Shown here: positions 11,463-14,885 of the stretch, piece by piece | Layout: every line of letters begins with the position of its first letter | How positions within the stretch are numbered: the first letter of the stretch is position 1 | DNA from: Candidatus Latescibacterota bacterium | GTDB lineage: Bacteria; JAAXHH01; JABIQT01 | NCBI GenBank assembly: GCA_018667995.1 | Contig: JABIQT010000978.1 | Coordinates: 1-20,118 of the forward strand | Length of the DNA stretch: 20,118 nt | Direction: 5' to 3' | Translations under genes and position numbers: made by a program | Notes under the pieces: model-generated | What the model was told of the DNA's origin: nothing | The model's database searches: none | Seen by the model: only the letters and a program-made list of their open reading frames with translations

Positions 11463-12059
11463 CTATTGTCCCTTCTGCGCCAGAATCCGCCAGTGTGTGC
11501 ATCTGATTGTTTCCTCGGATTTTGTGACATAGTCTATTTGCGATGTATGCCTATCGACTAAATTGAATCTGTCGAGTAACGACTCGGTCTCCCGCAGCGA
11601 AGTGAAATGGTGGATAATCCCAGATAGTGGCAAGAACGTATGTTTGCCTATCATCTCGCCGACTCCGTAGCTCCCATGTTCGTGGCTTGCGAGCGTCAGG
11701 TAGAAGTAGCCACTTGGCTTTAGAGTCCGATACACCTCGGCTATGGTCTGGGAAATATCCTCGGGCAACGCGTGATATATGACGTGAACCGCGAGGACGC
11801 CGTCAAGCGTGTCAGATTCTATTGGCGACGAGAGCATGGAACCCACCACCGGATAGATGGACGGTGTTTCGCGTTTACAGCTTGCCACCTCTTCCGTTGT
11901 TAGATCAGATGCAACAATGGAGAGCCCGATCTTCGACAGGGCCCGGACATGACGTCCCGATCCACAACCGAGATCATGGACGAGTCGCCCTCCCTCCTGC
12001 TGTACCAATGTGGCAAATGCAATTGCTTCTGGATCTGGATCCTTCCATGGATCGACCAT
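11463..12059 (-). CDS. Class I SAM-dependent methyltransferase
   Basis: This is a 198-residue single-domain methyltransferase. Motif I reads VHDLGCGSGRHVRALSKIGL (27-46), followed by SDLT, where the acidic residue would hold the SAM ribose. Later motifs include DTLDGVLAVHVIYHAL and VYRTLKPSGYFYLTLAS, as in the Methyltransf_11 and Methyltransf_25 groups. No extra domain indicates the acceptor, so a small molecule is the likeliest substrate but it is unknown. The ATG at 12059 follows AGGA with 8-base spacing. It lies 64 bases downstream of the pyrD homologue on the same strand and may belong to that transcript. It converges on the lipoprotein gene with only 5 bases between the stops. Confidence 0.85.
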   Translation of the reverse strand: MVDPWKDPDPEAIAFATLVQQEGGRLVHDLGCGSGRHVRALSKIGLSIVASDLTTEEVASCKRETPSIYPVVGSMLSSPIESDTLDGVLAVHVIYHALPEDISQTIAEVYRTLKPSGYFYLTLASHEHGSYGVGEMIGKHTFLPLSGIIHHFTSLRETESLLDRFNLVDRHTSQIDYVTKSEETIRCTHWRILAQKGQ

Positions 12060-12123: not shown

Positions 12124-13218
12124 TCAGGAATCCAGTCCGATGGCATCTGATATGTGCTTCAATCCATCGCGCTCGAGTAGATCGCATAGGCCATGGTTTA
12201 TACGGCCTACCAGCCCTGGTCCTTGGTAAATGAGCGCGGTGTAGATTTGCAGAAGCGATGCTCCCAGGCGGATTTTCCGGTACGCATCGGCGGCATTTGT
12301 TATTCCACCAATGCCCACAAGCACATGCCTTTTCTTGTCGAGACGCTCGTACCATGCACGAATTGATTCGTCTATCAGTTTGCCGACCGGTTTGCCGCAG
12401 AGCGTGCCGGGCATTTGGTTCAACTCCTGCTCTGGTGTTTTCAGTCCTTTGTAGGGTTTTCCTGTGGGTAGTCCAAAGGCAATACCCTTTACAAAACCGA
12501 ACGGAGCAATGGCCGCGAGCGTGCCATCAATACGTTCCGAATCCGTCGATGGAACCACCTTCACGTAGGTAGCAGGCATGTTCCGATAGCCTGCATAGCC
12601 CTCGAGAAGACGCCGAAGGTTTTCGGGGTCATCGAAAGGGCTCTTTCCGGCAGAGGTGTTCGGGCAGTTCAGGTTCAACATGAAATAGTCTGCCACTTCA
12701 AGGAAAGGTTCGGCCGCCGTAATGAGTTCTTGGATTACGTGTTCAGCCTCTATCGGTTTTCCCGTATTTGTTTCTACGAGATTCACGCCCAGGGGAACGG
12801 GCATGTATTGGCCCGTCAACCGTTTCGCGACTACTTTAGAGCCATCATTGGGCACTCCATAATACACGACGATGGCCTCATCCGCGGGCAGCCTGAAAAG
12901 GCGAGGTCTGACGACGTTGCCTTCGGACGGAAACGCGGATATAGAACCTACCTCTACAGAGCCAAAACCCACTGCCGCCAATCCTTGAACCGCTATACCA
13001 TTCTTGTCAAACCCTCCCGCGAGCCCGAGTGGATTGGGATATCGCAGGCCTCCTACCTCCAGTTCAAGACGACTATCCTGGGTTGCCAGCAATCGGCGCA
13101 TAGCGGCTCTGACAGGCGGATCCTTTCCTAGCAGTCCTGCAACGGCAAGTGTTGAATGATGAGCCCATTCCGGATCCAGGCGAAATAAGAATGGTCGGAT
13201 TAGAGATTCGTATAACAT
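12124..13218 (-). CDS. pyrD: Class 2 dihydroorotate dehydrogenase (PyrD) homologue with altered active site
   Basis: Class 2 PyrD oxidises dihydroorotate to orotate with FMN and passes electrons to quinone. The 364 residues have the membrane-associating N-terminal helices of that class (MLYESLIRPFLFRLDPEWAHH) and the FMN barrel: GLAGGFDKNG (Lys72), FGSVEVGS, VNL, YVKVVP (Lys220), VGIGGI and GASLLQIYTALIYQGPG. The substrate side differs. By my alignment to E. coli PyrD, Asn111 becomes Val118, Phe115 becomes Val122, the base Ser175 becomes Cys185 (in LNLNCPNT), and Asn246-Thr247 become Gly249-Leu250; Asn182 and Asn187 remain. A cysteine base is normal for class 1 enzymes. It may be a divergent PyrD or a paralogue with another substrate. 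AGGAGGG lies 14 bases before the ATG, a long spacing. The heparinase-like gene ends 38 bases upstream. Confidence 0.75.
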   Translation of the reverse strand: MLYESLIRPFLFRLDPEWAHHSTLAVAGLLGKDPPVRAAMRRLLATQDSRLELEVGGLRYPNPLGLAGGFDKNGIAVQGLAAVGFGSVEVGSISAFPSEGNVVRPRLFRLPADEAIVVYYGVPNDGSKVVAKRLTGQYMPVPLGVNLVETNTGKPIEAEHVIQELITAAEPFLEVADYFMLNLNCPNTSAGKSPFDDPENLRRLLEGYAGYRNMPATYVKVVPSTDSERIDGTLAAIAPFGFVKGIAFGLPTGKPYKGLKTPEQELNQMPGTLCGKPVGKLIDESIRAWYERLDKKRHVLVGIGGITNAADAYRKIRLGASLLQIYTALIYQGPGLVGRINHGLCDLLERDGLKHISDAIGLDS

Positions 13219-13256: not shown

Positions 13257-14885
13257 TCATGTTGGATTGGTTCTGATCTCGACGGTGATCTCGCCTTGTA
13301 TGTTGGGCCGGATAGAAAAGCAGGTCTCCTTTGCAGGAGCCGGATCATCTAACTGAAGCAGGCCGTTCCCGACAACTAACGACTCTACGAAACCATCATG
13401 CTGCAAATTCATCAGTTCTCCCTGCGTTACTACTAAAGATACACCATTCTCCCAAACTAGAGAATTTGGCCCAGGCTGTGGTCGATCTTGACAGGTACAG
13501 TTCCAATCCTCTCCGGACCTGCGATGGATAACACATAGTCGGGGACGTTTCAGCACCATTTCCACTTCGGCGTGTACGATCTCGTGGCGAAGTATCGCCG
13601 ATTCGCCGTCGTCCGATACCAATACGGGGCGCGAATTTTCTTTGGGTGCATCGTCCAGGATGTCTGCCCGGAGTACCGTTCTACCACCGGCATGGGCGAT
13701 CGCTTGCGTGCCGCCCATGGCAATTAGCAGGTCCCCTGGATCCCAGGACGATCGTGCATAAACTTCGTTCACAGAGGGAAACTGCCATGAGCGTTTATCC
13801 GGAGTTTGATCTACGGGCACGTCCGGGTCGAACCAGACGCAAGCGTATCCGCCGAGCTCGAACAGCATCTGCTCACCGCTTGGGGAAACATACCTGGTTT
13901 GCTGAATGTGGCCAAGAGTTTGGTCCCAGAGTGCGAGTCGTTGGAGGACCGGTATCTGGTACATATGAGCAAGGTACAGAAGTACCGGGGATGCATAGTC
14001 TAGTTGACCATATGATGGCTGGAGCATAAAGGAGGAATGAGAGGGTCCCAATGCCCGCCAGTGCTCACCTGTGATTCCGGCCAGGGCGGTATCCGCGCAC
14101 ATATATTGCCGGAATGGTGTGAACAGGTCTTGACCGGTCACGCGCTCCAATGCATCCATGAAGAACAAGCGATACTGCATAGTAGATGCCCAGAAGGTCG
14201 CTCCCTCGATCTGGGCACCATCCGGCGAGAGTCCCAGAGGCAAGAGATGGTCCTCAAACTTCTCTACTGTTACTTCGAGCCAACGTTCAGCCTCTGACTG
14301 TTCACCCAGCAGTGCCAGGGCGGCAACGCCGAAGGATGCCCACTCCACAGTAGCATGGTGGGTATGGAAGAGGGCTCCCCTTTTATCTGGCGTGTCGAAA
14401 TACTCTGCGAAATATCGCTCACATATGGAGGATAGCACCTGACGAATCTCGACCACTTCGGACTCCGACAATAGATTGTGTATCAGGTCATATCCTACTG
14501 CGATGCCCTTCAGTAAGCGGCTGACAGCATAAGCTTTGCCACCGTCAACTGCTCCTTCTGCTTCTCGCTTCCATACACTGCAACTTGCGAGCACCCATTC
14601 TCTGGCTGCGGCTCCGTACTTCTCTGTTCCAGTCAGGGAATGCGTGAATGCCAGATGTTCAGTGATCGCCAGGTCCTTCATGATCGCGTAGAAACGATCA
14701 TAGAGGTTTCTATGTATGGGATCGGACGGTGCTGGAGGTATCCAGTCACGACGCGGTACCTGCTCCAGGCACCATTCGGCAGATTCAACAAGATTACCCA
14801 CCAGAATCCTATATCTGGGGTGGGACTGTTTTCTCAGAATCTCGGCGTCGTGTCTATTGGGGTAGAGGCGAGGGTGCTGATTCAT
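13257..14885 (-). CDS. Heparinase II/III-like (polysaccharide lyase-type) protein
   Basis: The 542-residue product has the two-part layout of heparinase II/III-like proteins: an alpha/alpha-toroid in the first 340 residues and a beta-sandwich afterwards. Candidate catalytic residues match the family pattern of His, Tyr, His: FHTHHATVEWASFG (His173-His177), GATFWASTMQYRLFFMDAL (Tyr238) and MGGTQAIAHAGGRTVLR (His398). VNEVYARSSWDPGDLLIAMGG is the usual junction with the sandwich. Members cleave uronic-acid polysaccharides such as heparan sulfate or alginate oligomers by elimination. I see no signal peptide, so it probably works on imported oligosaccharides in the cytoplasm. The ATG at 14885 has GGAC and GGAA elements upstream. 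It lies 230 bases downstream of the tetR stop and 38 bases upstream of the pyrD homologue. The substrate is unknown. Confidence 0.7.
   Translation of the reverse strand: MNQHPRLYPNRHDAEILRKQSHPRYRILVGNLVESAEWCLEQVPRRDWIPPAPSDPIHRNLYDRFYAIMKDLAITEHLAFTHSLTGTEKYGAAAREWVLASCSVWKREAEGAVDGGKAYAVSRLLKGIAVGYDLIHNLLSESEVVEIRQVLSSICERYFAEYFDTPDKRGALFHTHHATVEWASFGVAALALLGEQSEAERWLEVTVEKFEDHLLPLGLSPDGAQIEGATFWASTMQYRLFFMDALERVTGQDLFTPFRQYMCADTALAGITGEHWRALGPSHSSFMLQPSYGQLDYASPVLLYLAHMYQIPVLQRLALWDQTLGHIQQTRYVSPSGEQMLFELGGYACVWFDPDVPVDQTPDKRSWQFPSVNEVYARSSWDPGDLLIAMGGTQAIAHAGGRTVLRADILDDAPKENSRPVLVSDDGESAILRHEIVHAEVEMVLKRPRLCVIHRRSGEDWNCTCQDRPQPGPNSLVWENGVSLVVTQGELMNLQHDGFVESLVVGNGLLQLDDPAPAKETCFSIRPNIQGEITVEIRTNPT

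Follow-up and report, generated by a model that had tools for sequence, protein, structure and literature searches.

Six side chains are established from dihydroorotate dehydrogenase (DHODH) structures to bind orotate. Lys100, Asn145, Asn212, Ser215 and Asn284 have been described as active-site residues of DHODH (PMC12197698), and His56, Arg136 and Tyr356 as the quinone-site residues of the human enzyme (PMC7762340); in class 1A, the FMN contacts are Lys44, Asn128, Lys165 and Asn195 (PMC5881531). Fungal class 1A DHODH-like proteins that were assigned to DHODH in databases proved to be dihydrouracil oxidases (PMC9585004, PMC10395836). PreA/PydA and the putative dehydrogenases X1 and X2 belong to the same superfamily; the available portion of PMC4016543 assigns them to the class 1 branch and proposes pyrimidine-like or purine-derived compounds as their substrates.

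The gene analysed here was found in a stretch of 20,118 nucleotides from a Candidatus Latescibacterota bacterium, which is referred to as the window. Its product resembles the class 2 DHODHs (Escherichia coli PyrD, the human and Mycobacterium tuberculosis enzymes; TIGR01036) in its whole predicted fold, its FMN-site residues, the His, Arg and Tyr of the quinone site, and the position of the base. The family to which it belongs (the window family) differs from them in human numbering by Asn145 to Val, Phe149 to Val and Thr285 to Leu, by VETN in place of GKNK, by Cys in place of Ser at the base, by an altered stretch past the base, by the absence of pyr context, and by the presence of another PyrD in most carriers; the clade of the window protein differs further by Asn284 to Gly. 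Two class 2 PyrD proteins encoded in pyr operons (L018/L121 in pyrE-pyrD-pyrF and L022/L122 in pyrC-pyrD) share the class 2 sequence and the Cys base with the window family and stand near it in the tree, on long branches, but unlike it they keep Asn145, Asn284 and Thr285 and adjoin pyrimidine genes. The window family lies on the class 2 side, in contrast to PreA/PydA and X1/X2 as placed in that portion of PMC4016543. The window protein shares with the fungal dihydrouracil oxidases a DHODH-like flavoprotein character and a catalytic Cys, which is predicted here, whereas the fungal enzymes have a class 1A scaffold, oxygen as acceptor, and an active site largely conserved with DHODH; they set a precedent for mislabelling of this sort. 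A class 2 PyrD paralogue family with another substrate was not found described in the open-licence papers searched.

Family assignment and predicted structure

The gene and its neighbours are as follows.

12124-13218, minus strand: coding sequence of a class 2 DHODH-like FMN oxidoreductase (paralogue subfamily), 364 aa, assigned from PF01180, TIGR01036 and NF003652 matches, an AlphaFold2 model and PDB matches
13257-14885, minus strand: DUF4962 (heparinase-like) gene, upstream and separated from the coding sequence by 38 bases (PF16332, 41 bits)
11463-12059, minus strand: class I SAM methyltransferase gene, downstream, 64 bases past the coding sequence (PF08241, 62.8 bits)

The translated gene matched Pfam DHO_dh (PF01180) with 154 bits and passed both class 2 DHODH models, TIGR01036 with 231.2 bits (cut-off 200) and NF003652 with 297 bits (cut-off 267). 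These curated models label the protein a quinone-dependent DHODH, and they were not built to separate its clade; when five members of the family and its sister clade were scanned singly, three passed both models and the two from Eremiobacterota fell below. The best sequence matches among solved structures were the human and other class 2 DHODHs. The scores with the class 1 model TIGR01037 (57 bits, cut-off 270) and the PreA model NF006183 (32.6 bits, cut-off 335) place the protein outside both groups; it also departs from classes 1A and 1B in having an N-terminal extension and no pyrK neighbour.

An AlphaFold2 model of the window protein, calculated with 28 family sequences, had a pLDDT of 88.3 and a pTM of 0.89 and consisted of an alpha/beta barrel that follows three N-terminal helices (residues 2-13, 16-31, and 34-44). 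The predicted structure combines the DHO_dh barrel with the N-terminal helical extension of the class 2 fold. Using Foldseek and VIA-align, the model was aligned over its full length with the DHODHs of M. tuberculosis and humans at Z scores of 44-45, an rmsd of about 2 A and 34-37% sequence identity, residues 1-364 corresponding to human residues 36-394 with a Z of 44. Residues 188-190, directly past the base, were the sole part of the model with a pLDDT below 50.

Active-site, cofactor and quinone-site residues

Residues were placed in E. coli numbering by aligning the profile of 30 family sequences with that of 37 class 2 sequences, E. coli PyrD from NC_000913 serving as an independent numbering reference, and were counted in 30 family rows, 39 class 2 rows, and 12 class 1 rows. 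The hand alignment behind the sequence-only reading was reproduced at every pair: Val118 with Asn111, Val122 with Phe115, Asn182 with Asn172, Cys185 with Ser175, Asn187 with Asn177, Gly249 with Asn246, and Leu250 with Thr247. The interval which that reading had singled out, 12469-12867, is exactly the span from the codon of Val118 (12865-12867) to that of Leu250 (12469-12471). The codons concerned, all on the minus strand, are listed in the order of the protein.

13159-13161, minus strand: His20, quinone-site residue (human His56), kept in 30/30 family and 39/39 class 2 rows
13003-13005, minus strand: Lys72 (E. coli Lys66, human Lys100), kept in 30/30 family rows
12892-12894, minus strand: Arg109, quinone-site residue (human Arg136), kept in 30/30 family and 39/39 class 2 rows; Glu in class 1
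12865-12867, minus strand: Val118, replacing Asn111 (E. coli) or Asn145 (human); Val in 30/30 family rows
12853-12855, minus strand: Val122, replacing Phe115 (E. coli) or Phe149 (human); Val in 28 and Cys in 2 family rows
12766-12777, minus strand: signature Val148-Glu149-Thr150-Asn151 (of VETNTG), replacing GKNK(DTP); each residue in 30/30 family rows
12658-12675, minus strand: Asn182 to Asn187, the two active-site Asn that flank the base, kept (Asn182 in 28/30 and Asn187 in 30/30 family rows)
12664-12666, minus strand: Cys185, predicted catalytic base (E. coli Ser175); Cys in 30/30 family rows
12559-12561, minus strand: Lys220, FMN lysine (human Lys255), kept in 30/30 family, 39/39 class 2 and 12/12 class 1 rows
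12469-12474, minus strand: Gly249-Leu250, replacing Asn246-Thr247 (E. coli) or Asn284-Thr285 (human), from the alignment and family counts
12241-12243, minus strand: Tyr326, quinone-site residue (human Tyr356), kept in 27/30 family and 37/39 class 2 rows; Gly in class 1

Conservation of Lys72, Asn182, Lys220, Gly275, Gly304, and Gly305, which correspond to human Lys100, Asn212, Lys255 and the glycines of the FMN site, predicts that the protein would bind FMN. The class 2 quinone site is likewise represented by His20, Arg109, and Tyr326, and because these three residues are kept the enzyme still looks built for quinone reduction.

The replacement of the catalytic Ser175 by Cys185 stands, but it does not serve as a pointer to a different substrate, as had been proposed. 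Cys occupies the base position in 7 of the 39 ordinary class 2 rows and 11 of the 12 class 1 rows, and the serine base, which the window protein lacks, is not a feature that defines class 2. The ordinary class 2 genes L018 and L022 have a Cys base, sit in pyr operons whose genes were identified by reading the sequences, and retain the remaining orotate residues; the Cys base was therefore rejected as a sign of a new substrate. A separate class 2 DHODH group (L142, L154, L157, L100) was observed to combine a Cys base with Asp in place of Asn212, and this suggests that the change from Ser to Cys arose more than once.

The changes in the orotate pocket itself are of uneven weight. At the position of Val118, Val was also found in 5/5 additional or sister rows, and Asn in 38 of the 39 class 2 rows and in all 12 class 1 rows; the pairing is secure, being ungapped and equally spaced from an invariant Arg (in FRL) and an invariant Gly (in YG). 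At position 250 (human 285), the family has Leu in 26 rows, Ile in two, and Val and Thr in one each; Thr is found throughout the 12 class 1 rows, and Thr or Ser in 38 of the 39 class 2 rows. Judged from these rows, the near-universal changes at 118 and 250 go beyond chance. The change at Phe115 counts for little, since class 1 enzymes carry Leu or Ile there, although Phe is present in 36/39 class 2 rows. Loss of Asn246 holds for the window protein, which has Gly249, but is confined within the family to 9 of 30 members; the other 21 retain Asn, as do all class 2 and class 1 rows. The placement of Gly249 and Leu250 requires a one-residue deletion in the preceding strand, and without it Asn246 would pair with Leu250 and Thr247 with Pro251, so that both Asn and Thr are lost under either placement. 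With Val118, Gly249, and Leu250 in place of the Asn145, Asn284, and Thr285 of class 2, the window protein has lost three of the six orotate-gripping side chains. It had been stated that only the two Asn around the base remain; both are indeed kept, but so is Lys72.

Columns conserved specifically in the family include Ser94, Ser98, Val118, Tyr120, Pro123, VETNTG (148-153), and Leu250, and are clustered at 94-98, 118-123, 148-153, and 250; by position these would mainly be loops expected to line the DHODH pocket. At the columns of the VETN signature, the class 2 rows have mostly Gly, Lys or Ala, Asn, and Lys. Two further observations concern variation among related sequences. Orthologues of one genus (g3; L013, L015, L016, and others) carry an insertion of variable length, rich in Pro, Ser, Arg, and Gln, past window residue 136, together with low-complexity C-terminal tails. 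In L149 (G142:C23:19182-20264), a protein outside the window family in the tree, Asn145 is replaced by Val and Thr285 by Leu, and the base is Cys, changes that resemble those of the family; it is one of two class 2-type DHO_dh copies encoded in a 1.2 Mb alphaproteobacterial genome.

Phylogeny, distribution and genomic setting

A careful tree of 53 rows put the family on one side of a branch with support of 100/100, apart from both canonical class 2 and class 1; the phylogeny proposed in the sequence-only reading thus places the window protein in a supported clade outside canonical class 2 PyrD, with the substitutions fixed clade-wide. In a quick tree of 73 rows, the family and its sister clade comprised 26 rows with support of 100, and the nearest sequences were the Cys-base class 2 proteins L018, L022, and L149 (99), with long-branch warnings. 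Because the family and its sister adjoin Cys-base class 2 proteins in that tree, the Cys base may already have been ancestral.

Of the 16 genomes in the phylum of the window, 13 contained the family, as did 20 of 64 genomes (about a third) of the G066 phylum, Latescibacterota members included. It was rare in Alpha- and Betaproteobacteria and in Eremiobacterota: 2/385 genomes of the G062 class (Alphaproteobacteria) were positive, with at least 470 bits compared with at most 278 bits for canonical enzymes, as were 2/149 genomes of the G063 phylum and 1/398 Pseudomonadota, the one being the query genome itself. Part of these matches belong to the sister clade, which has KTNRG in place of ETNTG. 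About 40 genomes carry the gene intact, close pairs show dN/dS values of 0.10-0.35, and the family is under purifying selection.

A search for a second, canonical pyrD, also suggested by the sequence-only reading, found one in the same genome, where pyrK, a class 1B pyrD (NF005574, 388 bits), and pyrF lie in a row on contig C512. In the nearest genus, a second match of class 1 type was present in all 12 carriers of the window family; the eight pyrD genes that were fetched were class 1B-like by score, with a pyrK motif adjoining in four, and in the pieces fetched for the other four genomes the scan did not detect the motif. Among 22 more distant carriers, 19 had a separate DHO_dh match, mostly of class 1B and of class 2 in G060, G062, and G063, and no other PyrD was found in three, which are draft assemblies, one of them with a near-identical relative that has two copies. 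Class 1-like extra copies are also present in proteobacterial carriers. Extra DHO_dh copies with open frames of about 430 aa and weak similarity to class 1 (L123, L124, L126; genomes G059 and G063) were observed in genomes that also contain window-family members.

The position of the gene beside a heparinase-like gene had been taken to fit a different substrate. This was not borne out, and the neighbour was rejected as a functional clue: neighbours vary by clade, and neither the DUF4962 gene nor the methyltransferase gene recurs beside any relative examined. Depending on the clade, the relatives adjoin an MR_MLE enolase gene and an unassigned downstream gene, zinc dehydrogenase and PhyH genes, flavin reductase and GntR genes, hydantoinase A/B genes, or Rieske and extradiol dioxygenase genes. 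The neighbours of the relatives examined are mostly catabolic or unrelated, with no pyr genes, and no conserved partner gene that points to a substrate was found among them. A scan for promoters and terminators near the coding sequence gave matches no more frequent than in shuffled sequence. In genus g3, the DHODH-like gene is overlapped at its end by a same-strand ORF (L005:324-1538, minus strand), which by eye resembles a phosphotransferase-type kinase and had no Pfam match. The gene of one Eremiobacterota relative (L188) is set among Rieske ring-hydroxylating and extradiol dioxygenase genes.

Proposed function, alternatives and significance

We consider it likely that the window protein is a neofunctionalised class 2 DHODH paralogue, namely a quinone-linked FMN dehydrogenase with a Cys base that acts on a substrate other than dihydroorotate. 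It would most likely be a membrane-peripheral enzyme in which Cys185 takes a proton from the substrate while FMN accepts hydride, and, as in class 2 DHODH, a quinone entering between the N-terminal helices would receive the electrons of the reduced flavin. Dihydroorotate is probably not the substrate because three of the six orotate-gripping side chains are gone, the loops around them carry a new sequence conserved across the family, and a separate pyrK-pyrD pair of class 1B is present. The second pyrD, the separate clade, and the fixed pocket changes support the earlier suggestion of a different substrate or an unusual subclass, and from them we infer the change of substrate itself. Retention of Lys72, Asn182, and Asn187, and of Asn at position 249 in 21 of 30 members, counts against such a change, and judging from these residues some affinity for dihydroorotate may be left. 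As a guess, the substrate might be a small cyclic compound with a catabolic or salvage role. With somewhat more reserve, we regard as probable that the proteins constitute a hitherto undescribed family of enzymes built on the class 2 DHODH scaffold, entered in databases as PyrD, which would pass electrons from a compound other than dihydroorotate to the quinone pool.

It is unlikely that the protein is instead a genuine second DHODH, belonging to class 2 and linked to quinone, whose orotate pocket is unusual yet functional and which operates beside the NAD-linked class 1B enzyme. Two DHODH classes do occur in some bacteria, as with 1A and 1B in Lactococcus lactis and Enterococcus faecalis (PMC10395836), the equivalog models score the window protein above their cut-offs, and Lys72, Asn182, Asn187, and the base are kept. 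This reading is opposed by the loss, in all or nearly all members, of Asn145 and Thr285, which are common to class 1 and class 2 rows and are retained even by the Cys-base class 2 pyrD genes inside pyr operons, and by the lack of pyr neighbours in the relatives examined.

Quite improbable, too, is oxidation of another dihydropyrimidine (dihydrouracil or dihydrothymine) or of a hydantoin-like ring on the class 2 scaffold, in the manner of dihydrouracil oxidases or PreA/PydA. The ring-binding Asn/Thr pair (284/285) is precisely what is lost, whereas its counterparts are retained in dihydropyrimidine dehydrogenase. The Cys base is shared with class 1 DHODH and dihydrouracil oxidase (PMC10395836), activity of DHODH-like proteins on dihydrouracil has precedent (PMC10395836, PMC9585004), and one Eremiobacterota member adjoins hydantoinase A/B genes, but that neighbourhood was seen once only.

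A further reading, a class 2 pyrD supplanted by the class 1B enzyme and surviving as a decaying or non-catalytic relic, is very hard to credit: another PyrD in most carriers would relax selection, but the gene's intactness across genomes and its low dN/dS already make this reading unlikely, and the base, the FMN lysine, and the new family-specific motif are invariant.

Automatic labelling would name the window gene dihydroorotate dehydrogenase, and its product, read as a neofunctionalised class 2 paralogue, probably oxidises another small molecule. If so, some of the proteins annotated as quinone-dependent DHODH are not pyrimidine enzymes, which would affect metabolic models of uncultured groups, Latescibacterota among them, as well as inferences of pyrimidine prototrophy drawn from pyrD. 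The family would also be a natural case in which the class 2 DHODH pocket, part of an enzyme class against which human, malarial, and fungal drugs are directed, has been rebuilt for another substrate with flavin, base, and quinone tunnel retained.
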